From: Pempheris klunzingeri
Taxonomy: Eukaryota > Chordata > Actinopteri > Acropomatiformes > Pempheridae
Direction: 5' to 3'
Assembly: GCF_042242105.1 (NCBI RefSeq)
Contig: NC_092027.1
Span: 17,157,221-17,221,220, forward strand
DNA: 64,000 bases
The position numbers and the translations under genes are program-made. The notes beneath the pieces are model-generated. The model had not been told where the DNA came from, ran no database searches, and worked only from the letters and a program-made list of their open reading frames with translations. Below are positions 28,551-64,000 of the stretch, in pieces. Position 1 is the first letter of the stretch. The number at the start of each line of letters is the position of its first letter.

Positions 28551-28556
28551 CCAGGT

Positions 28557-28690
28557 GCTTTTATGATCCCTTCTCTTATCCTGTTGTCCCTGCAGAGCAT
28601 GACACTGATGCACCAGCAGTTTGCCATCGGCCAATGCCTTAGAAGGAGCAGGGTTTGGGCTGCAATTAACCCCTACATGACAGGAGCGTG
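28557..28690 (+). pseudogene. Decayed SLC6A19-type exon 2
   Basis: After ccccag the sequence reads as a degenerate copy of transporter exon 2: GAFMIPSLILL, then FAIGQCLRR and AAINPYMTG. In the live copies the same positions read [20 protein letters not shown] and RSINPYLTG. Conserved glycine and glutamate codons are lost (the VLEG and LEF motifs are broken) and the donor after the final GGAG is CGTGTG. The exon is therefore dead, and I could not find exon 1 upstream. It lies on the same strand as the array, 2.7 kb upstream of copy 1. Confidence 0.8.
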
Positions 28691-31391: not shown

Positions 31392-34300
31392 ATGAAGCTG
31401 AAGATACCAAACCCAGGGCTGGATGACCGGATCCCCTCTCATGGGGACCTGGAGAGGATGGAGAAGGAAGAGGCCGGGGACAGGCCAAAATGGGACAACA
31501 AAGCCCAGTATCTGCTCACCTGTGTGGGCTTCTGTGTGGGACTTGGCAACGTCTGGAGGTTCCCTTACCTGTGCCAAAGCCATGGAGGAGGTAAGCCGGG
31601 ATGAGATTGGGTGTTATCTGTTCAAGCTCTTTAGCAACACATTCAGCGTATTCTTTTTAAGTGCTTCAAATGCTTACAGGCTGCAGAGATGTAGTATTTG
31701 TAGCAGTTCAGATCGGTTTTCTCTTGAGATAATTTTGCTCCCAAGTGAGGTAAAAAAAAAATGCTAGATATACCTGTTTCTCTTAAAAGTTTAAAAATCA
31801 GTCAGTGAATCAGTGAAATTGGTTCACATTGAAACCTTTAGCTGCTAAAAGTTAATGTACCTCCAGGAGCCTTTATGATCCCGTTCCTTATCCTGCTGGT
31901 CTTGGAGGGAATCCCACTGCTGCACCTGGAATTTGCCATCGGTCAGCGCCTGAGGAAGGGCAGCGTGGGCGTGTGGAGATCAATCAATCCGTACCTGACG
32001 GGAGTTGGTAGGTAAAAAAAAAATGCAAGTTACTTTATTGTTTTAAGGAAATAAAATCATCAAAGAATTATACTCTGGTTTATGACCAGATACCTCTTGT
32101 TTAAAAAACCATTACCACGAGACTAATCGTTTCATTTTGTTGCAGGTATTGCGTCCCTGTTTGTCTCGTTTTTGGTGGGCATGTACTACAACACCATCAT
32201 GGCCTGGATTATGTGGTATCTCTTCAACTCCTTTCAGAACCCTCTGCCTTGGAGTCAATGCCCTCTCAATGCTAACAGAACAGGTATCCCTTCTTCCATC
32301 AAGAAAACAATCTGACAGAGAAAAAACACTCATCTGCTGTACACTCATCTGCTATAAAATCTGTGATAACATTTCTTTCCAAGGTTGCTGACATCTTGTT
32401 CTTAACTATATGATCCTAAGTTTACCGGTCGCTATCTCTTCATCTGTCTATCAGGTCTGGTAGAGGAGTGTGCTCGGAGCAGCACTGTCGACTACTTCTG
32501 GTACAGAGAGACTCTGAACACCTCCACAGCCATCGATGAGTCTGGAGGTATGCAGTGGTGGATGGTGCTATCCCTGATAGCTGCCTGGACTGTGCTCTAT
32601 GTTTGCTGCATCCGCGGAATCGAGACCTCTGGAAAGGTCTGAAAGTCACATTACATCTGTATAATCTAAGTAATATCTGCTTTGGAGTACATGTTCGGTC
32701 AAATGCACAGGTACATCACACAGGCGCGACTCATTTCGCCGTTTCTCATTTCCCAGGCTGTCTACATCACCTCCACTCTGCCATACCTGGTCCTCACCAT
32801 CTTCCTCATCAGAGGCCTGACGCTGAAAGGCTCTTTAGCTGGAATTAAGTTCCTTTTCACACCAGATGTAAGCACTGATGCAGCACATCAACCGACATGT
32901 CATATTAAATCAATATTACGCAGACATTTTAAAGCCTTTTTGCTGTCTAACCAAGAATCAGACCTATATCACTCTCACATCTGTCCATTAGATCAGCAAT
33001 GGAAGGGATTAAACAAGGGAAAACAGTGTTTTGGTTTTATAGGAGTTCATGTGTTACTTCCTGAAGTGTTGTCGTCACCGTGAGGTTCACGGTAAGGGTA
33101 TATCAATCAACATTAGTTAATGCAGTAATAAGCTTTAACAGTTAATTAATTAACAGTTACTTAAGAGCTAACTAATTATCTACTGATTGACTAATGGCAT
33201 TCACAGAAACTATGGTATTAACTAATACGTATTCAATAGTTTATAAAGATTGTATTACCATGGTTAATAAAATAAGAAGAATTAAGTAACGTTAACTAAC
33301 TAATATACCTAGTCATCATTTACTTGTGGTTTTCATGCTAAATAAGGTATCAAAACTGCGGGTTTATAAAGATGTTACTAACATTGCTTAATACAGTAAT
33401 AAGCATTAACTAACAGTTCATTGGTACAATAATAAGCATTAAGTAATGGTAACAAATGTCTCTTGTTAACATTTATTGATACTGCCTTCCTCTAACTCTA
33501 ACTTATTAAGGTTGAGATTAGTGGACTCACTCCACTCCTTCATGCGGAGGTTTGCTCATCCCTTTATTATCGTAGTGTTTACAATCCTTCACTTCCAGCC
33601 TCACCCGTGAATTATTGTGCATGCCACACTGTGTGAGCATTACTACCACAGTTATATTGTTAAATTGACAGCATGTATCCCTTAGGTCACACTTCATAAA
33701 TGCTTAATAGTGCTGTACAAGCATCACTTAACCATAATTAACCATATATTATTGCTCTTTGTGACTGTTGTAAATTTGAAACAATCAGCAAATCAGTTCA
33801 TCACGACAACCATCTGTTAACGACATGATTCATTCCACATTTAAAAGGATGGAGACTTCAAGCCAACTGTGTAAAAAAAAATGTGATTCTTTCATTTTGG
33901 AAACAATTTTAGTGGTCTTTAAAGGGGATGATTTCACAGCTGTATGAAAATAACGACAAAAACGTATATTTCGTTTTTTCTAATGGTTGCAGGACTTTTA
34001 TTCAACTTAGGCTCTCCATAAGTGGAATATGGAGCTAACAGGGGGTGCAGGCACACCCTCTTACAAGCATTTACAATATTAGTTAGCACCTTAATTAACA
34101 TGTAATCCCTTAAATGTTAAGGGACATCTGTTAACAGTTACGTAATGCTTATTATTGTATTAATTAAGTGTTAGTTAATGCTTATAACTGCATTAACTAA
34201 TGTTACTTGATATACCCTTACTCTAAAATGATGATATTTTCACGCTGCGGGTTTGTTTTTACAGATTTAACAAACCGGAGGTGCATGTAGGGAGATTATG

Positions 34301-36939
34301 GTGCCTGCAGACAGCTCCTGATTTTTCTTTTTTCCACATTCCCATTCCTAATGCTAAGTTAAGATAAGCAGCTGCTGTTTAGCTAATGCCAAACTATTTC
34401 TAGTAGTTAAGATAAGCACAGATAATCCCTATGGCTGCAAACGGAAAATTGAGAAATCAAATGTGAGTAATATTCTGATAAGAATTTAGCTAAATCATTT
34501 TAGCTTATGTAAACTGGCACTCGCTTTATCACCCACTTACATATACAACAGCTCATATTTTTTGAACTCCTGGTTTAATGTGTGTCCTTGAAGATTCAGA
34601 AAACTATAATCCTGGTGGACACCTTCACACATTAATTATTAACAATGGCTGAAACAGTTGGGGCTGGAGTGTACTGTCATGTGCACTGTAATTTGCATAG
34701 GAATCTCAGCTCAGTTTCTACTACTTACTACTTACTTTCCACACAATCTAATTTCTATACTCTCGTAGGTGAATGAGTTATTAAATCCACAGACCTGGTT
34801 GGATGCTGGTGCTCAAGTTTTCTACTCATTTTCCTTGGCTTTTGGAGGCCTCATCTCTTTCTCCAGTTACAACTCTGTTCAGTAAGTAACTGCCTTAACT
34901 GCACAGTCATACAATGAACCTGCTTTTGAACAAAGGTCCTCACTTGATCGGAATTTCCTCGTAGCAACAACTGTGAGCAGGACGCCGTCCTCATCTCCAT
35001 CATCAATGGCTGCACCTCAGTGTACTCAGCGACAGTCATCTATTCCATCATCGGCTTCAGGGCCACGCAAAAATTTGACGACTGCATGGATATGTGAGTT
35101 TCAAATCACACAAAAGAAAGCCTTAAGAAATAATGTTCTCAGGATACAAATACATGCGTGCTTTTCGCAGGAACATCATGAAGCTGATAAATGCCTTCAA
35201 CTATCCTGAAAACAACATCACAGAAAGCAACTACCATGAGACTTTGACCTACCTCAACCAGACAGATCCAGATATCATTGGTGGATTAAATCTACAGATC
35301 TGTGACATGCACAATTTCCTCAGTCAGGTAACATTTGAATATTTGACCACTTTTGCTGATTAATCCATTATCTGCAAATTTGTCCGTTTCCAGTCTCACT
35401 GAAATGACTTAGCAGAAGGCCTGTGGTTGAAATGTTTGCTGCCACTCCTTCAGGGTGTAGAGGGAACAGGCCTGGCCTTCATTGTGTTCACAGAAGCCAT
35501 CATCAAGATGCCCGTTTCTCCTCTCTGGGCCGTCCTCTTCTTCATCATGCTCTTCTGCCTCGGCCTCTCCACTATGTTCGGCAACATCGAGGGAGTGGTG
35601 GTTCCTTTGCAGGACCTTAAAGTGCTGCCCAAAACTTGGCCCAAGGAAATTTTCTGCGGTAACTCCTAGCAAGTATAAAATACCATCTCACATCGGGATT
35701 GGTCCTGGGAGATGTGTGTAACCACTTTTTTTCGTGTCGTGTTTTTTCAGGTCTGACTTGCCTAATATCTTTCGCTTTGGGGCTCATATTTTCCCTGCGC
35801 TCTGGAAACTACTGGCTGGCTCTTTTTGACAACTTCGCCGGCTCTATCCCCCTTCTGGTCATTGGATTCTGCGAGATGTTCTCTGTTATCTACATATATG
35901 GCATAGATAGGTGAGTCTATCCAGGAATCTCAAAGGCAGTAGTGTTAAGCCAGACCAATGAGAAACAAACAGAAAAACATTTCACTTAGTCACTGGATTA
36001 CAGTGTGTCAGAGGTGAGAGCAGATAATACCCATTTCTTGAGTCACTAGTTTAGTTGAAACATAGCAGGAAGTAACAGAGCGTTGTGTTCTGACCTTGAA
36101 ACAGAGATAGACTGTCAGTTATCATAGGAGAGATAATGACGCGTTGTCTTGTGATGTAGCATGACTTTGATGAGGAATGTGGAAAAATGTGCATTTTTTT
36201 TTCCCTCAGAATTTCAAAAATATTGTTATTGGAAGCACTAAAACATTACTTGTAAGTTATAAAATGTGTCCAGAGTGCAAAATATTGCAATGTTTTTTTT
36301 AGCTGACACAAGGTTAGACTAATATGACAAAGTGGAGTGTTCAGTGGTCCACACAAGCTGCTTTATTTGATGTATCTAATAAAAGCACAAGGTCGGCTTT
36401 TATGGAGCCTCTCAAACACACTGAGCTGACGTTATGACTCCCTCTTATTGCTTCCAAACAGGTTTAACAAGGACATTGAGTTTATGATCGGCCACAAGCC
36501 CAATATTTTCTGGCAGGTGACATGGAGGGTGGTTAGTCCACTCATTATGGTCTTCATCTTGATTTTCTACTTCGTAACCCAAGTCACCAAGAGTCTCACC
36601 TATTTGGTCTGGGACCAGGAGTCGGTAAGTATGCTCATCTAAGCCTGAATACTTTTTTAGATGATGTCTTAAGGAGAAATTCACTGAATGCTTTCTCTTC
36701 TCATGAATGATGGTTTTAAAACACACCTTTGTCATATCTGGTCGTAGCCGGAATTCCCCCAACTCCATCCGAGTCCTTTTCCCTCCTGGATCTACATCAT
36801 CATCTTCCTCCTGGCCGGAGTTCCAAGTTTAGCCATCCCAGTGTTCGCCCTCCTCAAATTCATTCAGAGAAAAGCCTGCAAGCAGAGGGACTCCGATGAC
36901 TCCGATGACGACACAGTATCTCTGCCAAAATACAAATGA
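31392..36939 (+). CDS. slc6a19: SLC6A19-type neutral amino acid transporter (B0AT1), array copy 1
   Basis: Twelve exons: 31392-31590, 31867-32007, 32146-32283, 32455-32636, 32757-32867, 34769-34881, 34965-35093, 35171-35327, 35454-35658, 35751-35910, 36462-36624, 36748-36939. The joined frame is open for 629 residues (human B0AT1 has 634). B0AT1 carries neutral amino acids with Na+ across the apical membrane of gut and kidney epithelium, with collectrin or ACE2 as partner. The N-terminus has [12 protein letters not shown] and [11 protein letters not shown]1 has [15 protein letters not shown]2 has two N-glycosylation sequons (N-R-T, N-T-S), and exon 4 ends IRGIETSGK. Na1 residues N53, S277, N309 and Na2 residues S429, T430 are all present. 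The tail is acidic (DSDDSDDD) and ends LPKYK. This is the most orthodox copy. Intron 5 (1.9 kb) carries a palindromic transposon. ATTAAA (37186) and AATAAA (37476) are candidate poly(A) signals. Confidence 0.95.
33092..34221. mobile_element. 1.13-kb palindromic nonautonomous DNA transposon in copy 1 intron 5
   Basis: The left end begins GTAAGGGTATATCAATCAAC and the right end is its inverted copy, ending GATATACCCTTAC. About 39 of the first 42 bases pair. Inside are many TTAACTAA/AATAAGCATTAA units, also in inverted array. No transposase frame and no clear target duplication are visible. It accounts for most of the unusually long intron 5. Confidence 0.8.
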
Positions 36940-39636: not shown

Positions 39637-42600
39637 ATGAGGCTGGTACTCCCTAACCCAGGACTGGATCTCCGGATCCCTAATCATGAGGACCTGGAAA
39701 GGATGCAGAAGGAGGACGAGGAGGATGGGAATAGGCCCAAGTGGGACAACAAAGCCCAGTACATCCTAACCTGTGTGGGCTTCTGTATCGGGCTTGGTAA
39801 CGTGTGGCGATTCCCTTACTTGTGTCAAAGTCATGGAGGAGGTAGGTAAGCTTAGACACAGAGGGTAAATGGATATCTGTGGTGTATTATGATGTTAAAG
39901 CAAATTAAACAGTGGCGGAGGTACTCAGGAGTGGATTTACTGCAATCTTGTGTGAATTTATGGCATTTTATGGTCTTTAATTATCTTCTCTGAAGGACAT
40001 TTTGCAGCGCAGAATTAGTATGGATCTCTGAGGGGCGGCACAAAGCCAAAGCTATTGCCAAATACCTGAAGTGTGAACTTAACCATTTTACTTGAAATAA
40101 AATCACTAGTCCTTTTTACCTAAGGCTAAAATCAAGAAAAATACATGACTCATTCATGGCAAAATGAGAGTGGTTTAAAATCACCATCGAGATACATCAA
40201 TGATTCTCAAGAGTATGCGCTCCTCTGAAGTAATGTCTAACCTCTGGCATGACAGACGTATGAGCTACAGACAGGGAGTCAGCTTTGTATCAGCTAAGAA
40301 AACTAATAGTATTAATAGTATTAATAGTATTTATAGTACAGACAGATTTCCGAGATCTGCATGTTTCCAATAGTACAATCTGTCTGTGACTTGTTAACTA
40401 GAGTGTTCAGTTCACACTGTCCACGTCATCAGCCACAGTAATGGAACAATACAGACGTAAACAAAACAGCACCAATGTTAGATTTTAGTCTGCGGCAAGT
40501 GATCTGAAATTGCATTTTCATGTGTTATGTATGAAGAGAAACCTCAATGTCAGCTGCGATTGGCCTCAGTTCCCCCGTGATCCTTGAGGATAAGCGTTAT
40601 AGACATTGGATGGATGGATATTATTATCTGTGAATAGGTCATAAACCTTGCCTATCACAGCATTGCACAGCAAATCTGTAATCTTTACAGGAAATGCGTA
40701 CTGTAGTCAATATCTAACCGTTATTAATTGCTGTTATCAGCAATTTATTTTCTTCATAAACATTTTATATACTTGCTATATTTCCACCCCACAAACATCC
40801 TCACACACCATATGGTGTTATCATCATCTGTATGACCCGTTTTGTCCAAAATATACTAGCATAGTGATAAGTCCCATCAATCAAAGTAATGCCTCCTCAA
40901 GGCAACTACAACTTAATCTGCATAGAGCAAGTAATTATATGATGATGTTTAGCAGGTACAATGTTCACCATGTTAAATGTAGTTTAGCAACTTTTACAAT
41001 CAGCTTCTGAATGTCATTAGTTTTGTTGGTATTTGGCCATTAACTAAAGTACCGCACAAAATAACATTTCAACCTGATGAAGGTAAAAAGTCCTGCTGAA
41101 AAGTCAGGAGGATCTCCACAGTTAGCAGGATCCACCCTCTTGGCACTGCTTATGTCCGTACAAAATTTCATGGCGATCAATTGAATTGTTGTAGGTATAA
41201 ATTTTTGTCTGGACTAAAGTCTCAAATGGCAGACCAGCAATACTGGCCCTAGAGCCTCTGGCATTAGTAAAAAGTACTGGGATTACCACGACCCTAATAA
41301 AAAGAGGAAACCCAAGTTGCTTTAAAGAGAAAGTGCAACATAGCGAACCACTTGCCCATGGTAACTGGCAATAATATTAACAACATTTAAGTCCACAGCA
41401 CCTTTTTATGTCATGGCACTTCTTATACAGGATTCAGATATTTATGTCAATCTCTCAGCAGCTTATCACATACATTTTTCAGGTGCATTTTTGATTCCCT
41501 ACCTGATCCTGCTGGTACTAGAAGGAATGCCTCTCCTGCTGCTGGAGTTTGCCATCGGCCAGCGTCTCAGGATGGGCAGCGTGGGAGTGTGGAGGGCCAT
41601 CAACCCTTATCTCACTGGCATTGGTGAGTAAAATGAGTAACAAAAAAAAAAACAGATCCACTGGCATCACAACAACACATACATAATGAGTGATTATCTG
41701 GCTTCCTATATGATTCTGTCCTCCTCAGGTATAGCCTCTATGCTGGTGTCCTTTTTGGTTGGACTGTACTACAACACCATAATAGCCTGGATCATGTGGT
41801 ATCTCTTCAACTCCTTTCAAAATCCACTGCCTTGGGCCCAATGTCCCCTCGATGACAATGGGACAGGTAAGGAGAACACACACATTTTCAGCCCACAACA
41901 CACCAAAGCAACCCAACAGCATCATTATTTATGCATATTCATTGCCCCTCCAGGATTTGTACCTGAGTGTCAACGGAGCTCCACTGTAGATTACTTCTTT
42001 TACAGAGTGACCCTGAATAGTTCGGCCTCCATAGCCGACTCTGGAGGAATCCACTGGCCCATAGTAGTCTGCCTGCTAGCTGCCTGGACAGTTATCGCTA
42101 TCTGCTGCATAAGGGGCATCAACACGACAGGAAAGGTTTGTTGAACCTTCAGTCAACTGAGTGTTTGCTACACATCGTTTCTGTTGCCATGTCTGTCAAG
42201 CTCTTGTCTGGCCAGGGTTCGAGTTATGTAGGAGCCGATGAGCAGACCACTCAGGCTCCTATCAAAGCAGCACAATCATACATCTGTGTGCCTGTCTGTC
42301 TCTATGTGTCTGCCCTGTGTTGACTGGCAACCCCGCCTCTCGCCCAAAGTCAGCTGGGATTGGCTGCAACCCTGACGGATAAGTGGTATAGACAATGGAT
42401 GGATGGATGTATACCTGACTATATACAGTATTTACGCTATACTTAGATATATATCTGACAATGATGATGATATGTACGTATTAAAAACTGATCTGTAGTG
42501 ACTCCCTGAGGGTAGTACTTAAACCAGGTTGTGTCCTGGGTGTGATGGGTCTGCAGTGATGTTTCCTGCACGTTCCCTGAATCTGTACAAGTATAAGTCC

Positions 42601-45600
42601 TGGATAGAGAGCAGATTGGCTCCAATTATTTTCTCTGCAGTCTCGACAATCTGTCGTTTGGCGGCCGATCCAAACCAGACAGTGATAAGAATGCGAAGAC
42701 TAGCTTGAATGATTGCAGAGTAGAGCCAGAGCGTCTGAGGCAGGTGAAATTCTTGAGCTGGACGTCCTCATCGGGGACTTTTTTCAACGATTGAATGAAT
42801 GTTTGATGTCTATTTTAAGCCCGGGGAGACTTTGGATCCCAGAAACCTGAAGGTGTTCAAGCCAGACACAGAAGAGATGGGGGGCAGTGTTAGCAGGGCT
42901 CCTCCTGAGGTCCGCTGTCATCTCTACAGTTTTGAGCTCCAGGTTGTTATGACTGCACCAGAGGGCCGGCTGTTTATTGGGTGTAGAGGGAGAAGAGCAG
43001 TGGAGAGAGCACATATCCTCAGGAGGCACAACAGCTGATGTGATGCCCTTCAGGTGGACCAACACCAGTCTCTCACCAGAGGATTTTATGACCACAGATG
43101 TGAGGGCGACGGGCCTGTAGTTATTTAACTCTGAGATAGAGGGTTTCAGGATGGTTGTTGAATGTTTGAAGCCAAGGTGGGATTCACACAGCTCCAGTGA
43201 TCTGTTGAAGACCTGTGTGATGATGGGAGCCAGCTGGTCTGCACAGGCTTTCAGACAGGAGGTTGACACGCCTCCTTTCTGATCTTGTGCCTCTGAAAGG
43301 TGCTGATGTCATGCAGGCCTCTCAACACTGATGCAGGGCCATTGGCTACTCTGATCTCCTTTGATAGCATTAGAATTTAGAATTCATGCTATCATGGAAA
43401 TTTCTGAAAAATAAAGTTTGCTGCAAGGAGTTCTTTGTGCGCCTTTATTTCTTGCAAGAAGGAACAACTGTAACAGAGTGGTCATGCAGTCTGACAGTCT
43501 GATGCATTACAATGCTGAAGACATGGAGTAATGAATGCATTGCTCTGTAGTGCTAATGAGCCCCAGTGTCAGTATGATATGGAAAAGTCATACTTTTTAT
43601 GTAACAGGAGGTTCAGTTTTTAGGGTGAGGACTAACCAGCAGTGTCTGATGAACATAAGCGCCATCTTGGGTGAAGTATCCGGAGGGTAAACTTATCCAA
43701 ATCAAACAAAGCAGGATAGAGTCTCTGATGTTACCCTACACTGGTATTGTAGCATCCAGGATCATTTCCCTTTTGTTACATGTACTCTAAGAAAATACTG
43801 TAGTATGAAATGGCCCACTCTTGCCACACACCAGTGTTTATGGCTTATAGCAGGTAAACACACTGTCAAATCTATTCCTCACAGTGAGCTTGTATTTTCA
43901 CAGAGGGTAAAAAGAAGAACCCACAATCCAAACTCTTGAGGTACAGAGTATCGCTCTTTCTGCAGCCCCATGCACTCCACTTTTAACATTTGAAGAAGTC
44001 CAAAGCTTGACAGATGGGCCTCTGTGCCTCGTTACAGCTGCCACGATATGATTATACAATTGATGTTTGGGGGAGGGATTTAGCAAATAGTTGATTATGA
44101 TACATTTATAAAAAAAAAAAAAAATTCAAAAATTAATGTCCACTATCAATTCCATTTTTTCTTGTCATGACCTCAGGCAGTGTACGTCACAGCTATTCTG
44201 CCTTACATAGTACTGGCCATCTTCCTGATCCGAGGACTGACTCTTAAAGGCGCCCTGAGCGGAATAAAGTTCCTCTTCACGCCACAAGTATGTTTCAAAT
44301 CTCGACACAAAACAGTTGTTTCTCATAGCTCAAAGATCACAACGTATGCCTCTCTTTTGCAGGTAGCAGAGTTGATTAAACCAACAACTTGGCTGGATGC
44401 AGGTGCCCAGGTCTTTTACTCCTTTGGTTTGGCGTGGGGAGGCCTCATCTCCTTCTCAAGCTACAACCCTGTTCAGTAAGTGTTGGTGGTGCTTCTTAAT
44501 TTGTAAAAAAAAAAAAAAAAAAAAAAAGGACAGTAGCCATTTTCAGACTGAAAGCCAAAATGTGTATTTGTTTTCCCAAGCAACAACTGCATGCAAGATG
44601 CTGTGATCCTGTCAGTGGTAACTGGCTTGACCTCAGTCTATGCTGCCACAGTCACCTACTCCATCATTGGCTTCAGGGCCACAGAGAAATACGACAACTG
44701 CATGATCAAGTAAGTACAGTTAATTTCAAGTTAAGTGGACGTTTTGTTCATTTTTCAATTATGACAAATTGGCAATTAAAAGAAATGCTGATTTTCTATC
44801 TAACTCAAACTCCTCAATTTTTATGGCCTCAGTGCATATGTCTCAGAGGTTTTTCAAATCTATCTACATAAACACATCCCCCCCTGGGGATTATTAAAGT
44901 AATTCTGATTCTGATTCTGATAACTTATTGGGTTACTGGCTGCTGTTATCATTCACATTAGGAGGGTATTTACTACAGAAAGTCTTTTAGCCAGGCTTGC
45001 AGAATGGCTCTAGGGATGGTAGTGCTGGTTGAGCAGCCACTTTGGCACAGACTGAGATATGTCAGTAACTATGGATTTTTATAAAATTTGGTACAAGTAT
45101 TCACTGATTCCAGATGACTATGATCCTTGTGATCCCTGACTTTTCCTCTAGGCTGTGAAATGTCTCAACAACTATTAGATGGATTTCTGTGGCATTTGCT
45201 ACAGTCTTTCCTACTCTCCACAGGATAATTATATGATCTCGGTGTGACATGTGTACAGTATAATTTTGTTTATGACCTGCAAAACAAATGACACTTCCAT
45301 CGGCTGCAGCTGACTCTGTGTTCATTGCTAATTAGCAAATGTTTGCTAGCATGTTGAATCTGGTAAATGTTTCCAGCTAAACATCTGCATGCCAACATTG
45401 TCATTGTGAGGATGCTGATGTTAGCATTTAGTTCTAAGCGCTGCTATGCATAAGTGCAGCCTCACAGAAACATGTAAATTTGAGTCATCCAGAGTTTTTA
45501 ATCTGAGGCACATTTTCTCCTCAGTAACATCATGGCATTATCAAATGCATTTGACCTTCCTGAAGACAGCATCACTGTGGACAACTATGAGGCAGCCTAT

Positions 45601-46950
45601 AATCATTACAACAGCTCCCATCCAGATACTGTTCTTGGACTGGACATCAAACTGTGTAGCATGCACACACTGCTCAGTGAGGTGACTCTTGATGAATTTC
45701 TCACATTCCACGTTGTAATTGGTTTGTGCTCCTACCTGGATTGTGACTAATGTGTGTGTTTGTCCAGGGAGTAGAGGGAACAGGTCTGGCCTTCATTGTG
45801 TTCACAGAAGCTATCACCAAGATGCCTGGTTCTCCAGCCTGGTCTGTCCTCTTTTTCATCATGCTTCTCTGCTTGGGACTCTCAACCCTGTTTGGCAACA
45901 TTGAGGGAGTGGTGGTCCCACTGAAAGACCTCCGTGTATTTCCTAAAAAATGGCCCCATGAAGCACTGACAGGTAACTTGACAACTAATTCCTCAGTTTT
46001 TCATCTGCCAAGGAAGTTTGTAATTTTAACACAAGTTGCTTATTTTTGTTCATGTGTGTTTCAGGAATAACATGTTTTGTTGCCTTCATCATCACGCTCC
46101 TGTTTGCGCAGCATTCAGGGATTTATTGGGTAACTCTCTTTGACAACTTTGCTGGATCTGTTCCCCTTTTGACCACTGGGTTGTTTGAGATGATAGCCGT
46201 TGTTTACATCTACGGCATAGACAGGTTAGTGCTTATTCAGTCCATTTTAGCAACAACTTGTCCGTCTGCGCTCTACATTTTGATATTTGCTGCAGAATGA
46301 TAATACAGTATCAGCAGCATCATGATGTGCGCCAGTCCAGTGTAGGAAGACTTCATACATATTCCAAAACTAATTCACATCCTCTTGTGCGCAGGTTCAA
46401 TGAGGACTTGAAGTTCATGATCGGACGTAAGCCCTCCTTATTTTGGCAGCTTTCATGGAGGTTCATCAGTCCTCTCATTGTTCTGGTTATCTTAGTTTTC
46501 TACCTGGTGACACAAGCGCAAGAAGAGCTCACCTATTTGGTGTGGGATCCCAACTCAGTAAGCACACAAGCTCTATAATCAGCTAATATATCATCCTAGA
46601 CATCCTGACTTTATGTTACCTTTTCTCTGTTGTTTGCCCATTGGGAAAAATACACAAATTACATAGCATACGAAATATTTTTAGGTAGATGTTGTTCCTC
46701 TGTTGTGCAGCATATAGTTAGTAACTCATTATAGTAGTTATCATCTTAAGGTTTGGACAGTTGTTGCATATCAAATGCACTAATCTTACAGTTTTGCCAC
46801 TTACAGGAGAAGTTCCCTTCTCTGGCATCAGTAACGTACCCTTCATGGATCAACGGGATCATCTTTCTTTTGGCCGGAGTTCCCAGTCTGGCGGTGCCTC
46901 TTTATGCATTATGTAGGCTGGTCTTTGTTTGCTGCAAAAAAAAAAAGTGA
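39637..46950 (+). CDS. slc6a19: SLC6A19-type neutral amino acid transporter, array copy 2
   Basis: Twelve exons: 39637-39841, 41483-41623, 41729-41866, 41954-42135, 44177-44287, 44363-44475, 44581-44709, 45525-45681, 45768-45972, 46065-46224, 46395-46557, 46807-46950. The frame is open for 615 residues with the same intron phases as copy 1. It starts [20 protein letters not shown] and is two residues longer than the others before [11 protein letters not shown]1 has [18 protein letters not shown]. Na1-equivalent residues are N55, S279 and T311 (Asn in copy 1). The Na2 pair is S431-T432. Sequons in EL2 are N-G-T and N-S-S. The protein ends CCKKKK, encoded by an 11-A run, which shortens the tail relative to copy 1. 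Intron 1 (1.6 kb) and intron 4 (2.0 kb) carry retroposon debris. AATAAA at 47118 is a good poly(A) signal. A function as a B0AT-type transporter is inferred from family membership. Substrate range is unknown. Confidence 0.94.
40303..40338. repeat. TTAATAGTA tandem repeat
   Basis: About four tandem units of nine bases (AATAGTATT) in copy 2 intron 1. Confidence 0.8.
40550..40622 (+). mobile_element. Retroposon 3' tail in copy 2 intron 1
   Basis: GATTGGCCTCAGT...GAGGATAAGCGTTATAGACA ends in TTGGATGGATGGAT. This is the recognisable tail of a widespread fish non-LTR retroposon. A second, similar tail lies in intron 4 of the same gene at 42345. Confidence 0.6.
40935..41275 (+). repeat. dispersed teleost repeat, family A copy 3
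   Basis: It shares the TTTACCATG-like, TAGTTTAGCA, CAAAATTTCATGGCGATCAA and CTGGACTAAAGT blocks, in order, with the copies at 14980 and 21690. It lies in copy 2 intron 1. Confidence 0.55.
42345..42408 (+). mobile_element. Retroposon 3' tail in copy 2 intron 4
   Basis: AGCTGGGATTGGCTGCAACC, then GATAAGTGGTATAGACA and ATGGATGGATGG. This is the same tail type as at 40550, in the same orientation. Confidence 0.65.
42490..43310 (-). mobile_element. Antisense fragment of a non-LTR (LINE) retrotransposon in copy 2 intron 4
   Basis: Read on the minus strand, the segment gives pieces of a LINE reverse transcriptase: [20 protein letters not shown], then [13 protein letters not shown] and [10 protein letters not shown]. 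Nearer the 3' end come [10 protein letters not shown] and the segment around ITADPSHPG. Central RT parts, including the YADD region, are missing and the frame is broken. It is a dead, internally deleted copy of the L2/jockey-like type and is antisense to the host gene. Confidence 0.8.
44503..44527. repeat. 25-base A homopolymer
   Basis: An uninterrupted A run in copy 2 intron 6, between exons only 105 bp apart. Length is likely unreliable. Confidence 0.85.
44870..44923 (+). mobile_element. L2-type LINE 3' end in copy 2 intron 7
   Basis: CCCCCCCTGGGGATTATTAAAGTA followed by three ATTCTG units is the typical 3' terminus of teleost L2-type LINEs or SINEs sharing their tail. No coding part is attached. 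Confidence 0.6.
45030..45440 (-). repeat. dispersed teleost repeat, family A copy 4 (inverted)
   Basis: CCACTTTGGCACAGACTGAG and TCTCAACAACTATTAGATGG are reverse-complement forms of the blocks seen in the other family A copies. It occupies most of copy 2 intron 7. Confidence 0.5.
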
Positions 46951-49427: not shown

Positions 49428-52400
49428 ATGAGACTGGTTCTTCCTAACCCAGGACTGGAACTAAGGATCCCTTACTATGAGGATCTGGAGAGGATGGAGA
49501 AGGAGGAGGCCGGGGACAGGCCCAAGTGGGACAACAAAGCCCAGTACATTCTAACCTGTATGGGCTTTTGCATTGGGATAGGCACTGTGTGGCGATTCCC
49601 GTACATGTGTCAAACCCATGGAGGAGGTAAAATCAGATTCAAATGGTAATGGGACATTCAGTGATTAAGCTGTCTGTGGACTGCCAATCCATGAATTATT
49701 GCATTAACCACAATTGTCATGATTTGTGGCTACTATAACAAGCAAGCCTTCATGCAATCTCACCAGCTTGTTAGCTCTAGTGTTTTGTTAGTGATAAATA
49801 CCACTTATTTGAACTACAATATTGTTTGTACTGCATTGTTGCCAGAAGTTACCGAAATAGGTTAAAGAATAAGATTAAGTAAAAGTACAAGAAAAAAAGT
49901 ATAGAACTAAGAATTTAGGTAGTGCTATTGCCTGAATGCATGTTGCAGTGGAGCCCTGCAAGAGTGTTCGATGGAGCCTGCCAGTGGTCATATGTCACAG
50001 AAAAACAATGGCTTGGAAATCTGGAGCCCTGTGGGACACTTTACAGTCCAGACTAGACATTACATATTCAATATCTTATCTAGTTTAACCTGCTATATTT
50101 GGAGGCCTATGATTCTCATAAGTGCAATCTTACAGATGCTACTGATCATTCGTGTTCTAGGTGCATTTTTGATTCCCTACCTGATCCTGCTGGTACTAGA
50201 AGGAATGCCTCTCCTGCTGCTGGAGTTTGCCATCGGCCAGCGTCTCAGGATGGGCAGCGTGGGAGTGTGGAGGGCAATCAACCCTTATCTCACTGGCATT
50301 GGTGAGTAAAATAGATTCTAGCCAATTTTCTCCAAACTAGAGGCTAAACGAGACTCTTAGCTCCAGAGACACATAAAACTGTTAATGAATATTTGGCTTC
50401 CTGTACATGTGACTCTGTCCTCCTCAGGTATAGCCTCTATGCTGGTGTCCTTATTGATTGGACTGTACTACAACACCTTAATAGCCTGGATCATATGGTA
50501 TCTCTTCAACTCCTTTCAAGATCCACTGCCTTGGACCCAATGTCCCCTCAATGACAATGGGACAGGTATTTGAAAATACACACTGAGACTCAAGCAGCCA
50601 AACTTGACACATGACTAAAACATTTGACTGATTCTTGCCCCTCCAGGATTTATACCTGAGTGTCAACGGAGCTCCACTGTAGATTACTATTTTTACAGAG
50701 TGAGTCTAGATAGTTCGGCCTCCATAGCCGACTCTGGAGGAATGCACTGGCCCATAGTAGTCTGCCTGCTAGCTGCCTGGACAGTCATCTGTATCTGCTA
50801 CATACGGGGGATCAGCACCTCAGGCAAGGTTTGTTGAACCTTAAGTCAAACAATGTGCATTCCTTAATCACCACAATTATTATATAATTTGCTTGTCTTG
50901 TCATGACTTCAGGCAGTGTACGTCACAGTCATTCTGCCTTACGTAGTGCTGACCATCTTTCTGATCCGAGCATTGACTCTTGAAGGTGCCGTGACTGGAA
51001 TAAAGTACCTCTTCACACCAGATGTATGTTTCTAATCTCTATCTTAAAAAAACATTACAAATTCCACAAAACAAAACCAAGAGACATTACACGGTACGCC
51101 TTTCTTGCAGGTTGATGAGTTGACAAAACCAACGACTTGGCTGGATGCAGGTTCCCAGGTCTTTTTTGGCTTTGGTTTGGCGTGGGGAGGCCTCATCTCC
51201 TTCTCAAGCTACAACCCTGTTCAGTATGACACATTTAGAAACCCTGTTGTGTTTTATAACCACACACTGGTTCTACACATATTTAGGCCATTTCAATGAA
51301 AAAAGGTTGAATCCATTCTCAGACATGATTCGTCCTGAATCTTTCACATTTTTTTCTTTTCTCAAGCAACAACTGCATGCAAGATGCTGTGATCCTGTCG
51401 GCCATAACTAGCTTAACCTCAATCTACACTGCCATAGTCACCTACTCCTTTGTTGGCTTCAGAGCCACAGAGAAATATGACGACTGTATCAGCGAGTGAG
51501 TAGTAACAGAATGTGGCTTTCAATATTATTTGGAACACAGTCCTATTCTATTCTATTTAGTATTTTAGAGAGTATTACGGCTATGCCTGCATGGACAAAG
51601 CAATCATTCCTGAAATTATTTAGCTGTGTTCATATGTCGAATTTATAGGTTCAAAAATAGTAATTGCGTTTGTAATGTTGGGTTTGTAATGTTAAGTAGA
51701 GTTACTAATCAATGTCTTAATTTGTTCATAGTAACATCATGACATTATCAAATGCATTTGACCTTCCTGAAGACAGCATCACTGTGGACAACTATGAGGC
51801 AGCCTATAATCATTACAACAACTCCCATCCAGATACTGTTCTTGGACTGGACATCAAACTGTGTAGCATGCACACACTGCTCAGTGAGGTGACTCTTGAT
51901 GAATTTCTCACATTCCACGTAACGTGTAATTGGTTTGTGCTCCTACCTGGATTGTGACTAATGTGTGTGTTTGTCCAGGGAGTAGAGGGAACAGGTCTGG
52001 CCTTCATTGTGTTTACAGAAGCTATCACCAAGATGCCTGGTTCTCCATTCTGGTCTGTCCTCTTTTTCATCATGCTTCTCTGCTTGGGACTCTCAAGCTT
52101 GTTTGGCAACATTGAGGGAGTGGTGGTCCCACTGAAAGACTTGAATATGTTACCTAAAAAATGGCCCCAAGAAGCAGTTACTGGTATTCTGCTTTTTTAA
52201 GTTAAAACAATCAGCAAATTAGCTTTGCAACCCTTGGTGAATTGGTTGCCTTATTTTTGTGCATGTGTGTTTCAGGAGTAACATGTTTTGTTGCCTTCAT
52301 CATCTCCCTCCTGTTTGCGCAGCACTCAGGGATGTATTGGGTAACTCTCTTTGACAACTTTGCTGGGTCTGTTCCACTTCTGATCATTGGATTGTTGGAG

Positions 52401-53339
52401 ATGATAGCTGTTATTTACATCTACGGTATAGACAGGTTAGTACATAAAATGTATATATTTGCTTAACATTTATTATACTGTATTATACTGTATACTGTAT
52501 TATACTGTACACCCTACTGCAAAATTACCATATTAGCAGCAGCACATCTGCACTCAGTTCTAAAACGAATGAAGGATAATCTACTGATTGTGTTAAATAG
52601 GCATCAAACTAACTTGTTACACCTGTGTCTGTGTCGCTCATTACGTCAATCCCACAAATAATTATTATCTGACTCAGTTATTACCTACATTTCCCTTCTG
52701 CTGTATGGACTGTTTACTATTTTGTGTTTTTCAGGTCATTGTTGTGGTTTTTTGGCCTGCAACTTCCCTGTTCATTGATTACTTTCATTATATTGTATCT
52801 ATTTTATTATAACCCTGTGACTGTTACTTTCAGCTAGGTTCCCTCTTGTGTGCAGGTTCAATGAGGACTTGAAGTTCATGCTGGGACGTAAGCCCTCCCT
52901 CTTTTGGCAGGTTTCATGGTTCATCAGTCCTCTTGTCACCCTGATTATCTTAGTTTTCTACCTGGTGACACAAGCGCAAGAAGAGCTCACTTATTTGGTG
53001 TGGGATCCCAACTCAGTAAGCAAATAGCTCTGTGATCAGCAAATATTTGAATTTATGTTGTCCTTTTCTCCAATGTTCCTTCATTGCAAAGTACACAAAT
53101 TACAAGGCATGATAAATATTTTAGGTTAATGTTGTTCGGACAGTTGTTGCATACTAAATGCTCTTATCATACAGTTTTGCCACTTACAGGAGAGGTTCCC
53201 TTCTTTGGCATCAATACCGTACCCTTCATGGATCAACGGGATCATCTTTCTTTTGGCCGGAGTTCCAAGTTTGGCGGTGCCTCTGTATGCATTATGTAGG
53301 CTGGTCTTTGTTTGCTGCAAAACAAAAAGTATTCAGTGA
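49428..53339 (+). CDS. slc6a19: SLC6A19-type neutral amino acid transporter, array copy 3 (divergent ion-site residues)
   Basis: Twelve exons: 49428-49626, 50161-50301, 50428-50565, 50647-50828, 50913-51023, 51111-51223, 51367-51495, 51732-51888, 51979-52183, 52276-52435, 52856-53015, 53190-53339. The frame is open for 614 residues and all introns keep GT-AG. TM1 reads [18 protein letters not shown], so the near-invariant Asn is Thr53. TM6 reads [12 protein letters not shown] with Gly277 where copies 1 and 2 have Ser. TM7 has Thr309. By family alignment these three positions coordinate Na1, and 277 also coordinates Cl-. The Na2 pair S429-S430 is intact. Exon 11 lacks one codon, so the conserved WRxxSP motif becomes WFISP. 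The C-terminus is [13 protein letters not shown]. The open frame argues for a functional but altered protein; a young pseudogene is the alternative. Copy 2's AATAAA reads AATATT here, and a repeat interrupts the 3' flank. Confidence 0.93.
52471..52510. repeat. TATTATACTG tandem repeat
   Basis: Short tandem TATTATACTG/TATACTG units in copy 3 intron 10. Copy 4 has a single unit at the same place. Confidence 0.75.
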
Positions 53340-58251: not shown

Positions 58252-61200
58252 ATGAGATTGGTTCTTCCTAACCCAGGTCTGGACCTCAGGATCCCATCCT
58301 ATGAGGATCTGGAGAGGATGGAGAAGGAGGAGGCCGGGGACAGGCCCAAGTGGGACAACAAAGCCCAGTACATTTTAACCTGCGTGGGCTTTTGCATTGG
58401 GATAGGCAATGTGTGGCGATTCCCTTACTTGTGTCAAGCTCATGGAGGAGGTAAGCTTAGATCAAAAAGGCAAAAGGATTTAAGATTAGGCTGCCTGCCA
58501 ATTCTTTAATTATTGTTTGATGAATTATAGTGTGGGTGAGATAAGCAGGATGACCATATACCTTTTTTTGGTGTTTTTCTATCTTTCAAATATGATTTTC
58601 CTGGACATATGTGTAGTGTGTAGTGGTGCATTAAACATAAAAAGGCCATTGTTGATAAATAATCTGAATTGTGAACTAGGGCTGTCACAATATCACAATT
58701 CACTAAATTGTACTAAAAATAATCCACAATAATGATTATGATTTCGATATCTATAAAACCAAAAAAAAGGAAAAAAATAATAATGCTATCACTCAAACTC
58801 GTTTTTGGCAACAGAATTACACTCTAAATGCAAGTGTAGGGAGGTGGAAAATAAGTCTGTATCCATAAATGTACAAAAGCGGAATAACACTTTCAAACAA
58901 CTGTACAACAATTTTCATTTCTAAATATCAGGATTATTGTCAATACAGATATATATCACGACTCCCCTACTGTGCACCTCTCACTTTAAATATGGTCTGT
59001 CCTTGCATATATTTGCATTTCTTTTTAAGTGTAAGTCATTACACATTTGCAATACTGTAGAATTAGCACATTATCTAAGGATAACCCCAGAGTTGAGTCT
59101 GGGGATTGTTTTAACTAGATCTTCAGGTGCTTATGCCAAGTTCACATCACAGATGGTAGAACTGGGAAAATGTCCATGTGTGTGACTTGAGAGCAATCAC
59201 GTCATAAGCCACAGACAGTTGTAGGATTACACAGATTGCTTTGTGAAAGTTAAAAATACTGCACAAGACAGAATATAACACTATATCAATTAAATGTTTT
59301 TATTACCTTGAATCGTGGACTTTGGTTTTACTTTTTGTAATTACAACTGGATATTCCCATGAATGCCATTTACACATTGGAAACTGTAAGTGCAGTAAGT
59401 ACAACAGAAATATATTGCAAGAGCATAGCCGTAGTGCCCCAACTGGCACAATAGGTGGCTAGCCTTCAACAAGCTAGGATTCAAGCTATCTTGCTAGCTT
59501 GTTGGCTTGTGTTTGGTCACCATAAATACCAGAATCATCACAGTAGTAGTATTAATAAACTTTGCACTCAAATTACCAAGCGAAAGTCTTAGGAAGGTGT
59601 GAAGAAATCCTGTGAAGATAAATGATTTCAAAAATATAAGATTTAATTGTTTATTTTTATTGATTTACAAAATGCACAGTGAGTGAACAGAAGAAAATTC
59701 TAAATCAAATCAATATTTGGTGTGACCACCTTTTGCCTTCAAAACACCATCAACTCTTCTAGGTACACTTAGGATATAGTCTATATTCAGGTGTACAATT
59801 AACCAATGAAACCAAACAGGTGCTTCAGCCCGGGTATTCCTCGATGACTTAGTATGCCTAGAAGTAGCTAAAGAATCCAGTGGCTGTTTTCAACACTTGC
59901 ATGCCTTTCCTTCCCCGCTTTCCGCTATCTTTCCTCCCCGTTGGAGGTCAGATGAGTTTCTTTGAAGATTACCCATTCAAGGAAAATCTTATCTACCATT
60001 AGTATTAGTCACCTCAAGGTTAAAATACTGCAATTCATTGAACCTAGATGCTGGCCACTCCTCTTTGTCTCGCCTGTGGCTGGTGCAGAATACTGCAGCA
60101 AGACTTCTAACTCATAGCAGAAAAAGTGATACTGATACTAACAGTCCTGCACTAGTTACCGGTCAAAATCAGGATTGAGTTTAAAGAAGCTCCCCTGTAC
60201 ATTTCTCAGAACTTCTCTGCCCCTATTCCAACTCTAGGCCTAAGATCCTTAGAACATTAGTTTCTGACTGATCCTTTGAAATAGCCTTCCACTTTCAATC
60301 AAATGTCCATTGACACAAAATTCAAGACGTACATGTTTTCAATGGCTTTTGGCTGTTCTTACTGGTTCTAATTAGTATTTTACATTTTTTTATGCTTTTA
60401 CAAATTGGTCTTTCAAGTTAAATTCTGTTTCTGTTTTACATCTGTGCACAAATTGCCTTGATAAAGCCTTATGCTGCCACATGCTACCTTGTCTTGCCTC
60501 TCCCTTGACTTGACTCTCCTTGGATATTATATGATAAGAAATTTGTTGAATAATTGGTTGCTTTGAAAATTTTACCTTACCTTTTACACCAAATTTTGAC
60601 TACGGATTGGTTTGAAACTGTTGACAACTACATGAACCCCATGGCCATGTGGCACGGAGCTCTGAGTCTGCCATAAGTCTCTTTTTAATGGGTTTAGGGA
60701 CTTTATGCACGTAGAGGTTCAGTACAGATGTAGAAGTAAATGACCCTACCAACTCCACCTACCAACTACCAGCAGTGGGAAAACACAGCAGAGGAAGAAA
60801 GGCGGACAGAGCAGAGTGGGAGGGGTTGTCACAAGGACTATTAATATTATTATCCATTCTTCACAGATGAGGCTTCACATTATGTTCAAAACCCAAGCTT
60901 TATCAGCTTGCCAAAATATTTTTATATTTGGTATGCTGAGAAGACCTATGATTGTCATGGATGCAACAGTATAAATTTTAAATTGTCCTACTGATCATTC
61001 GTGTTCTAGGTGCATTTTTGATTCCCTACCTGATCCTGCTGGTACTAGAAGGAATGCCTCTCCTGCTGCTGGAGTTTGCCATCGGCCAGCGTCTCAGGAT
61101 GGGCAGCGTGGGAGTGTGGAGGGCAATCAACCCTTATCTCACTGGCATTGGTGAGTAAAATGGATTCTAGGCCATTTTCTCCAAACTAGAGGCTAAACGA

Positions 61201-64000
61201 GACTCTTAGCTCCAGAGACACATTAAACTGTTAATGAATATTTGGCTTCCTGTACATGTGACTCTGTCCTCCTCAGGTATAGCCTCTATGCTGGTGTCCT
61301 TATTGATTGGGCTGTACTACAACACCTTAATAGCCTGGATCATGTGGTATCTCTTTAACTCCTTTCAAGATCCACTGCCTTGGACCCAATGTCCCCTCAA
61401 TGACAATGGGACAGGTATTTGAAAATACACACTGAGACTCAAGCAGCCAAACTTGACACATGACTAAAACATTTGACTGATTCTTGCCCCTCCAGGATTT
61501 ATACCTGAGTGTCAACGGAGCTCCACTGTAGATTACTATTTTTACAGAGTGACTTTAGATAGTTCGGCTTCCATAGCCGAGTCTGGAGGAATGCACTGGC
61601 CCATAGTAGTCTGCCTGCTAGCTGCCTGGACAGTCATCTGTATCTGCTACATACGGGGGATCGGCACCTCAGGCAAGGTTTGTTACAAACAATAAAAAAC
61701 AATATAATATAATAAAAATAATCTAATAAAATTATATCATGTTTTTCTTTCCTTGTCATGACCTCAGGCAGTGTACGTCACAGCTATTCTGCCTTACATA
61801 GTGCTGGCCATCTTCCTGATCCGAGGACTGACTCTTAAAGGTGCCATGACTGGAATAAAGTACCTCTTCACACCACAAGTATGTTTCTAATCTCTATCGT
61901 GAAAAAATCCAATCCTATATTTCAAGTAACAAAGACACATCACACTGTATGGCTCTCTCTTGCAGGTTGATGAATTGACAAAACCAACGACTTGGCTGGA
62001 TGCAGGTGCCCAGGTCTTTTATGCCTTTAGCTTAGCATGGGGAGGCCTCATCTCCTTCTCAAGCTACAACCCTGTTCAGTAAGACACATTTAGAAACCCT
62101 GTTGTGTTTTATAACCACACCGATTTGTCAATGAAAAAAGGTTGAATCCATTCTCAGACATGATTCGTCCTGAATCTTTCACCACTTTTTTCTTTTTTCA
62201 AGCAACAACTGCATGCAAGATGCTGTGATCCTGTCGGCCATAACAGGCTTAACCTCAATCTATGCTGCCACAGTCACCTACACTATCATTGGCTTTAGGG
62301 CCACAGAGAAATATGACATCTGTATCAGCAAGTAAGTAGTAACAGAATGTGGCTTTCAATATTTTTAGAAAACAATAATCCCAAAAGTATTAAAGAGTAT
62401 AAGTATTAAATTAAAGTATTAAAGAAAAATAGATTAAAACAAATGTCTAATGCTGCTGAGTTGCTAAGATTTTGTTTACATCAGTGTTGTCTCTAGAATC
62501 CAGCAACTATAATATACTGTATTTTATATTTTTAATCATGATAACTTGGGAAAGTAAATACTGATTTTCCATCCATTATCCAAATTCTTACCTCATGAGT
62601 CAAAAAGCATTGACAGCACATTTTCTCCTCAGTAACATCATGACATTATCAAATGCATTTGACCTTCCTGAAGACAGCATCACTGTGGACAACTATGAGG
62701 CAGCCTATAATCATTACAACAGCTCCCATCCAGATACTGTTCTTGGACTGGACATCAAACTGTGTAGCATGCACACACTGCTCAGTGAGGTGACTCTTGA
62801 TGAATTTCTCACATTCCACGTTGTAATTGGTTTGTGCTCCTACCTGGATTGTGACTAATGTGTGTGTTTGTCCAGGGAGTAGAGGGAACAGGTCTGGCCT
62901 TCATTGTGTTTACAGAAGCTATCACCAAGATGCCTGGTTCTCCAGCCTGGTCTGTCCTCTTTTTCATCATGCTTCTCTGCTTGGGACTCTCAACCCTGTT
63001 TGGCAACATTGAGGGAGTGGTGGTCCCACTGAAAGACTTAAATCTGTTACCTAAAAAATGGCCCCAAGAAGCAGTTACTGGTATTCTGTTTTTTTAGTTA
63101 AAACAATCAGCAAATTAGCTTTGCAACCCTTGGTGAATTGGTTGCCTTATTTTTGTGCATGTGTGTTTCAGGAGTAACATGTTTTGTTGCCTTCATCATC
63201 TCCCTCCTGTTTGCGCAGCACTCAGGGATGTATTGGGTAACTCTCTTTGACAACTTTGCTGGGTCTGTTCCACTTCTGATCATTGGATTGTTTGAGATGA
63301 TAGCTGTTGTTTACATCTATGGCATAGACAGGTTAGTACATAAAATGTATATATTTGCTTAACATTTATTATACTGTACACCTTACTGCAAAATTACCAT
63401 ATTAGCAGCAGCACATCTGCACTCAGTTCTAAAAAGAAGAATGTATATCCTGCTGTACTGTAATCAGGATTTTTATATTTACGATGGGAAAAAAAACGAT
63501 GTGTAATGCTATAAGTGTCACTCTTTTTGAAAAAAACATACATAATTATGACTCTCTATGACTCTCTCATATCTATTTTATCAACCTATATGTTCGTTCT
63601 TCTATGTGCTGCTGCAATCTTGGCCAGGGTGCCCTTGTAAAATAGAGTGTTCCTCTCAGTAAGTACATTATGATTGAATTAAACTCCTCTTGTGTGGCAG
63701 GTTCAATGAGGACTTGAAGTTCATGATCAAACGTAAGCCCTGCCTATTTTGGCAGCTTTCGTGGAGGTTCATCAGTCCTCTAATCATCCTGGTTATCTTA
63801 GTTTTCTACCTGGTGACACAAACGCAAGAAGAGCTCATCTATTTAGTCTGGGATCCCAACTCTGTAAGCACACAGATAGTCGCCTTTTTCTAATCATGCC
63901 TCAATACAAAATATACATTTACATTTGTGATGTGACATTGTGACATTTGTATGGTAAATGCTGTTAATAGGACAACATGTAATGATTTTGTGTTTTACAG
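58252..64000 (+). CDS. slc6a19: SLC6A19-type neutral amino acid transporter, array copy 4 (last exon outside window)
   Basis: Exons 1-11: 58252-58450, 61010-61150, 61277-61414, 61496-61677, 61768-61878, 61966-62078, 62203-62331, 62633-62789, 62876-63080, 63172-63331, 63701-63863. They are open for 566 codons. The window ends on the acceptor AG (63999-64000) of intron 11, so exon 12 should start at 64001. The N-terminus is [20 protein letters not shown] and TM1 has [18 protein letters not shown] with Asn53. TM6 reads [12 protein letters not shown] with Ala277 where copies 1 and 2 have Ser. TM7 has Thr309. The Na2 pair is S429-T430. Exon 11 keeps SWRFISP but has MIKRKP where copies 1-3 have a Gly before the Arg/His-Lys-Pro. 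Intron 1 (2.6 kb) is enlarged by Tc1-like and LINE remnants. Introns 2, 3 and 9 are nearly identical to copy 3, and intron 8 is identical to copy 2. The role is inferred as for the other copies. Confidence 0.93.
58675..58990. repeat. Possible dispersed repeat in copy 4 intron 1
   Basis: It begins GGGCTGTCACAATATCACAA and runs through A-rich sequence. This opening phrase is common in fish interspersed repeats. Its limits and family are uncertain. Confidence 0.3.
59576..59830 (-). mobile_element. Tc1-like transposon relic, internally deleted
   Basis: On the minus strand the sequence 59770-59715 reads [16 protein letters not shown]-stop, the C-terminus of a Tc1-like transposase. It is followed by the typical end sequence (plus strand GCGAAAGTCTTAGGAAGGTG near 59580). 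On the other side ATTAACCAATGAAACCAAAC (near 59798) is the opposite subterminal region. Nearly all the transposase is therefore deleted, leaving about 250 bp. Confidence 0.75.
60010..60380 (+). mobile_element. LINE 3' fragment in copy 4 intron 1
   Basis: The plus strand reads [20 protein letters not shown] near 60073, then broken pieces resembling YISELL and LRSLDQ. This is the C-terminal part of a fish LINE ORF2. Stops and frameshifts are present and the 5' part is missing. Confidence 0.65.

Follow-up and report, generated by a model that had tools for sequence, protein, structure and literature searches.

Tandem slc6a19a genes in a fish genome with a putatively remodelled joint centre for Na1, chloride and substrate

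The 64,000-nt stretch of DNA analysed here (the window; C16:17157221-17221220 of a 646-megabase genome in 439 contigs) carries four tandem slc6a19 (B0AT1-type) genes on the + strand, all with intact frames and splicing, which we refer to as copies 1-4 (Table 1). According to the gene models, each copy has an open frame distributed over 12 exons that are joined at GT/AG sites; in copy 4, exon 12 lies outside the window, beginning at the base that directly follows it, and the full protein of this copy has 610 aa. The domain PF00209 (Sodium:neurotransmitter symporter, SNF domain) is present in all four copies, and among solved structures, human B0AT1 (SLC6A19) is the top match for part of copy 2 and for the whole of copy 3, the latter carrying a one-residue in-frame deletion near TM11. 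Intact frames, intact splice sites and the dN/dS values given below rule out that all copies are pseudogenes. A search of the window against Rfam returned no match at the gathering threshold. Upstream of copy 1, we observed a diverged slc6a19 exon 2-like fragment (28554-28685, + strand, 61% identity to copy 1) and a possible exon 10-like stretch with stops (29344-29445), which is a much weaker match (E 0.056); the two are likely a relic of a further slc6a19 copy. Also upstream of the array, the - strand encodes at about 24983-25465 the N-terminal part of an FHOD-type formin (Pfam Formin_GBD_N), with FHOD1 as the closest solved structure.

Table 1. Genes and ion- or substrate-site codons of the slc6a19 array (window positions; triads are the TM1/TM6/TM7 Na1 residues)
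Feature	Position	Strand	State
Copy 1, slc6a19-like	31392..36939	+	12 exons, 629 aa; triad N/S/N, Cl- site Phe, TM6 Ser...Phe (B0AT1-like)
Copy 2, slc6a19-like	39637..46950	+	12 exons, 615 aa; triad N/S/T, Cl- site Tyr, TM6 Gly...Trp
Copy 3, slc6a19-like	49428..53339	+	12 exons, 614 aa; triad T/G/T, Cl- site Tyr, TM6 Gly...Trp
Copy 4, slc6a19-like	58252..64000	+	exons 1-11 inside window; triad N/A/T, Cl- site Tyr, TM6 Ser...Trp
TM7 Na1 codon, copy 1	35005..35007	+	AAT Asn
TM7 Na1 codon, copy 2	44621..44623	+	ACT Thr
TM7 Na1 codon, copy 3	51407..51409	+	ACT Thr
TM7 Na1 codon, copy 4	62243..62245	+	ACA Thr
TM1 Na1 codon, copy 3	49584..49586	+	ACT Thr
TM1 Na1 codon, copies 1/2/4	starts 31548 / 39799 / 58408	+	Asn
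TM6 Na1/Cl- codon, copy 3	51168..51170	+	GGC Gly
TM6 Na1/Cl- codon, copy 4	62023..62025	+	GCC Ala
TM6 Na1/Cl- codon, copies 1/2	starts 34826 / 44420	+	Ser
TM2 chloride-site codon, copy 2	41500..41502	+	TAC Tyr
TM2 chloride-site codon, copies 3/4	starts 50178 / 61027	+	Tyr
TM2 chloride-site codon, copy 1	start 31884	+	Phe
TM6 substrate-pocket codon, copy 2	44435..44437	+	TGG Trp
TM6 substrate-pocket codon, copies 3/4	starts 51183 / 62038	+	Trp
TM6 substrate-pocket codon, copy 1	start 34841	+	Phe
TM6 substrate-amine codon, copy 2	44426..44428	+	GGT Gly
TM6 substrate-amine codon, copy 3	start 51174	+	Gly
TM6 substrate-amine codon, copies 1/4	starts 34832 / 62029	+	Ser

Downstream of copy 4 on C16 lies an slc6a18 gene, and C8 carries a single slc6a19b followed by another slc6a18; slc6a19b and both slc6a18 genes have Asn at the TM7 Na1 position. 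In slc6a19b (locus L142, C8:13913816-13917980), exon 1 is followed by an apparent GC donor (GGAG/GCAAGT, with the slash at the junction), and a GT junction was looked for in vain. A 10-row tree sets the six slc6a19 rows apart from the slc6a18 and slc6a20 rows (99/98) and places copies 2-4 within the slc6a19 clade on a long stem (0.36). That copies 2-4 might themselves be slc6a18 genes can be dismissed, since the slc6a18 genes sit elsewhere and form a clade of their own. Copies 1-4 may form one group (62/88), but other groupings, among them one in which copies 2-4 split off ahead of copy 1, slc6a19b and human SLC6A19, are equally compatible with the data (AU p 0.11-0.53).

The first-pass annotation of this DNA had proposed that the Na1 asparagine of TM7 is kept in copy 1 and replaced by Thr in copies 2-4, and the codons bear this out, with the one of copy 2 lying two bases to the left of the 44623..44625 given there. 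The triads that it had listed for the four copies are likewise all as it described them, and the TM8 Na2 pair is kept throughout (S-T, S-T, S-S and S-T in copies 1-4). The TM7 position corresponds to LeuT N286, SIT1 N283 and B0AT1 N310, and Asn283 of SIT1 is listed as an ion ligand in PMC10491607. That these residues do sit at the Na1 position is indicated by the alignment of copy 3 with human B0AT1 (8wby), which places Thr opposite the TM7 Asn and is gap-free from the start through TM10, ruling out a misassigned register.

The alterations are not confined to Na1: the same copies also differ at the chloride site (Tyr), in the TM6 pocket (Trp) and at the Ser/Gly position of TM6. At the chloride-site position (SERT Y121), copies 2-4 share Tyr with the slc6a18 and slc6a20 rows, Phe being the state of human B0AT1, copy 1 and slc6a19b. 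The combination of Na1 Asn/Ser/Asn with chloride-site Phe, by which we mean the states of the human protein and no rule for the family, is therefore present in copy 1 and slc6a19b and absent from copies 2-4. The jellyfish SLC6 paper PMC6590891 points out that one of four chloride residues is missing from each of the human carriers SLC6A15, A17 and A19, which are independent of Cl-. The statement in PMC8310414 that the chloride-site Asn is mostly Asp in B0AT1/B0AT2 orthologues finds no support in human B0AT1 or in the loci read here. In SIT1, chloride is described as held by Asn27, Tyr47, Gln247, Ser251 and Ser287; two of these, Asn27 and Ser251, contribute to the chloride site and at the same time lie next to substrate and Na1 (PMC11217458). 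Na1, chloride and substrate thus share residues, and it is for this reason that we treat the changes in copies 2-4 as a putative remodelling of one joint centre.

In the substrate pocket, the TM6 residue that is Trp in copies 2-4 corresponds to LeuT F259, and the substrate-amine residue lies three positions earlier. As reported in PMC8602798, GlyT2 W482 and GlyT1 W376 restrict the pocket, the replacement W482F lets in Ala and Leu, and sarcosine transport is decided by Ser or Gly at GlyT2 S479; proline transport is tied to Gly at the same TM6 position in PMC11217458. A TM6 Trp does not force glycine selectivity, because SLC6A14 has it, yet is described as having a broad substrate range (PMC9599917). 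A TM3 Val-to-Ile change was considered as a glycine-type signature and rejected, since slc6a19b has Ile too.

How unusual these states are can be judged from 38 loci with TM6/TM7 exons of other SLC6 genes in the same genome, among the matches listed. At TM7, 35 of these 38 carry Asn, two are unread and one is gapped; at the TM6 position of LeuT T254, 33 have Ser and five, which from the look of the sequence we take to be SLC6A15/17-like genes, have Ala; and Trp occupies the position of LeuT F259 in three. TM1 was always Asn in the 11 stretches read of the 20 scanned in this genome. The Ala of copy 4 therefore has precedents among other SLC6 loci of the same genome (the five just mentioned, among the matches listed), which argues against regarding it as a loss, as had been done initially. 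In prokaryotic genome contigs, a search with the fish alignment confirmed no relative. A DNA pattern that left the TM1 codon free gave at least 127 matches, 16 of them too short, and the 111 reading frames kept are pattern-selected homologues, with family membership defined by the pattern alone. Among the matches listed, these frames have Asn at TM1 throughout (111/111), Thr (59), Ser (49), Met (2) or Cys (1) at TM6, and Asp (105), Asn (5) or Val (1) at TM7, which makes Asn a minority state at the LeuT N286 position in this sample (loci L001-L119). Neither TM7 Thr nor TM1 Thr nor TM6 Gly was seen outside the array among the matches listed, be it in the SLC6 loci of this genome or in the prokaryotic sample. 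In the literature on fish slc6a19 and on natural Na1 variants, judged by title and the start of the abstract and with most subscription papers outside its scope, we found no description of TM7 Thr in fish slc6a19, which is no proof of absence.

The predominance of Asp in the prokaryotic sample would fit one further explanation, namely that the Na1/Cl- centre of copies 2-4 might have switched its ion selectivity so as to accept K+ or to give Cl- a changed role, by analogy with KAAT1/CAATCH1, for which PMC8310414 reports Asp at the TM7 position and acceptance of K+. The chloride-site Tyr of copies 2-4 would agree with such a switch, but Thr is neutral and Asp is not, and the copies lack the other KAAT1-specific residues of TM1. 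In addition, the LeuT paper PMC10945697 gives the KAAT1 residue as Asn338, so that the two sources conflict on this residue. We consider a switch of this kind very improbable.

Between copy 1 and copies 2-4, dN/dS is 0.14-0.15 at a dS near 1.5, meaning that these comparisons are saturated, and among copies 2-4 it amounts to 0.21-0.40. Copy-specific values, which count changes in one of copies 2-4 against the two others without an outgroup, so that the copy 2 figure takes in the common branch of copies 3 and 4, which omit exon 12 of copy 4, and all three of which gene conversion can distort, are about 0.28 for copy 2 (p 3e-8 versus neutral), about 0.77 for copy 3 (p=0.55) and about 0.11 for copy 4 (p 1.5e-7). 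Copies 2 and 4 are thus shown to be under purifying selection, and copy 3, the most altered one, is under relaxed constraint that is indistinguishable from neutrality and may be losing function or changing fast. It could be argued from this that redundant copies simply drifted at the binding centre after duplication, in relaxed constraint or early decay. The T/G/T triad of copy 3, its deletion near TM11, its near-neutral dN/dS and the higher values among copies 2-4 than between these and copy 1 would all fit; copies 2 and 4, however, carry the TM7 Thr under clear constraint, and none of the four copies has a broken frame or splice site. As an account of copies 2-4, such drift appears unlikely to us.

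Change at first-shell residues was compared with that in the rest of the protein. Nine of 23 depart, in one or more of copies 2-4, from the residue that human B0AT1 and copy 1 have in common, compared with 87 of 540 elsewhere (p=0.0086), and 9/23 versus 47/259 when the comparison is made within TM segments (p=0.021). These p values and those that follow are nominal and uncorrected, since the test was framed with the data already in view, and the residue list and TM limits are in part provisional. Between human B0AT1 and copy 1, differences affect 2/23 first-shell residues and 151/540 elsewhere. Positions that vary among copies 2-4 are enriched in the first shell as well (7/23 versus 74/540, p=0.035), but fixed differences taken separately are not significantly so (4/23 versus 43/540, p=0.12).

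The divergence among copies 2-4 is distributed as a mosaic. Exon 2, which includes the chloride-site Tyr, belongs to the homogenised exons (0 or 1 synonymous differences per pair), as does exon 8, with none. Exons 6 and 7 have dS values of 0.17-0.42, and the divergent exons extend beyond those of TM5-TM7: exon 1, along with exons 5-7, is divergent and is in fact the most divergent of all (0.22-0.89), exon 11 reaches 0.18-0.26, and exons 4 and 10 reach 0.21-0.27 in pairs with copy 2. The introns, compared without introns 1 and 4 on account of their length and with alignments of more than 40% difference being rough, follow a related pattern, intron 8 being nearly or fully identical among copies 2-4, like exons 2 and 8, and introns 7 and 10 being divergent. 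In every pair, introns 5-6, when pooled, are more diverged than introns 8-9 (p 1.9e-6 to 1.4e-8), but the pair of copies 3 and 4 owes this excess to intron 5 (20/63), intron 6 being close (6/102). Such a mosaic fits patchy gene conversion or exchange between copies 2-4. Conversion that spared the binding-site exons only is ruled out, because other exons are divergent as well; it is possible that selection kept the binding-site exons apart.

Taken together, we favour, at roughly even odds (probability about 0.5), the reading that copies 2-4 constitute a tandem slc6a19a sub-array with a remodelled joint Na1/Cl-/substrate centre. The unusual Na1 change, combined with those in the chloride site and the substrate pocket, suggests new transport properties in these copies, as far as residue states can tell. 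With the Na2 site intact, they would remain Na+-driven amino-acid carriers; the TM6 Trp would narrow the pocket in favour of small substrates such as glycine and alanine, to which sarcosine or proline may perhaps be added for copies 2 and 3 with their TM6 Gly; the combination of Thr and the chloride-site Tyr would leave Na1 altered, probably weaker, rather than absent; and ion affinity as well as Cl- dependence would be expected to differ from those of copy 1.

The first-pass annotation had instead suggested that the array may be a natural series of graded Na1 loss; on this view, copies 2-4 would depend on Na2 only and take up one Na+ with each substrate. Part of this stands: the Na1 position, the triads and the conserved Na2 residues are as described, and the review PMC4127817 does state one Na+ per substrate for B0AT1, and likewise for B0AT2 (SLC6A15). 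Furthermore, weakening at this position is documented in LeuT, where N286Q (Gln, not Thr) shifts the Na+ EC50 from 7.7 to 54.6 mM (about 7-fold), reduces the affinity for leucine by a factor of about 200 and gave no observed transport of alanine (PMC10945697). What does not stand is the restriction to Na1, since the changes reach chloride and substrate residues. Thr, moreover, is still an oxygen ligand, so that loss of Na1 does not follow from its presence, and some Na1 ligands are backbone oxygens, as in the LeuT structure. The TM6 Ala of copy 4 recurs, as noted, in other SLC6 loci among the matches listed, and with copy 3 relaxed and copy 4 strongly constrained, the order of the triads does not have to reflect a gradation of function. 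We therefore regard graded Na1 loss as improbable, about on a par with drift.

Mutants of related carriers bear on how the putatively remodelled centre of copies 2-4 would behave. As reported in PMC10945697, LeuT N27Q reduces leucine affinity about as much as N286Q and shows no measurable transport into K+-containing vesicles (nor, like N286Q, any measured alanine transport), and T254S is tolerated; in SIT1, Ala replacements at substrate- and ion-site residues, save Q247A, markedly lower currents (PMC10491607). Given these impaired mutants, transport by copies 2-4 could be severely compromised. N27Q, by contrast, improves apparent Na+ affinity about 3-fold (PMC10945697), and sequence therefore does not tell in which direction an effect would go. 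A more far-reaching reading, which we consider less likely than not, is that copies 2 and 4 are functional SLC6 carriers whose Thr-containing Na1 site, chloride-site Tyr and glycine-type pocket co-evolved. Tandem duplication would then have been followed by a joint switch of ion coupling and substrate choice, with gene conversion keeping other parts alike, for instance the exon of the loop after TM7, a loop that presumably faces ACE2.

The need of a B0AT1-type carrier for Na1, and the linkage between Na1, chloride and substrate, have usually been probed with laboratory mutants, several of which are transport-dead. The array offers natural variants next to an unaltered copy in one genome, and selection apparently acts on two of these variants, which makes the question testable by expressing four related proteins. 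It is also of interest for the diversification of amino-acid uptake in the fish gut.

Among known systems, the closest is human SLC6A19/B0AT1 itself (e.g. 6m17, 8wby), which falls in the same clade (99/98) and shares 61-64% identity with copies 2-4 and 69% with copy 1. Compared with the human protein, copies 2-4 have Thr for Asn310, Tyr for Phe74 and Trp for Phe283; in addition, copies 2 and 3 have Gly for Ser280, copy 3 has Thr for Asn54 and Gly for Ser278, and copy 4 has Ala for Ser278, whereas the Na2 side chains are kept. The human gene, too, is described as having 12 exons (PMC4127817). In its arrangement, the locus resembles that of zebrafish, for which PMC8015242 describes tandem slc6a19a duplicates (slc6a19a.1 and slc6a19a.2), one slc6a19b on the duplicated chromosome and slc6a18 adjoining slc6a19, here represented on C16 and C8; the fish studied here, however, has four tandem copies against the two of zebrafish.

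In residue states, the glycine transporters provide the nearest parallel, GlyT1 (SLC6A9) having the TM6 Gly...Trp of copies 2 and 3 and GlyT2 (SLC6A5) the Ser...Trp of copy 4. Both GlyTs also have the chloride-site Tyr found in copies 2-4; unlike these, they keep the TM7 Asn. Copies 2-4 are nevertheless closer to SLC6A19 than to the GlyTs, falling in the slc6a19 clade of a tree that has no GlyT row; for copy 3, the match to B0AT1 reaches 909 bits and that to GlyT2 381. The pocket Trp of copies 2-4 is common to the GlyTs and SLC6A14 (PMC9599917). SIT1 (SLC6A20), with its chloride-site Tyr and a TM6 Gly tied to proline transport, is similar to copies 2 and 3, but keeps the TM7 Asn and has Tyr21 at a TM1 position that is Phe in the copies. 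Finally, the insect nutrient carriers KAAT1/CAATCH1 are reported to have a natural change at the LeuT N286 position (PMC8310414), as do copies 2-4; theirs is to Asp and that of the copies to Thr, with no acidic residue, and the Ala, Thr and Ser reported for their TM1 correspond to Gly, Phe and Cys in the copies.
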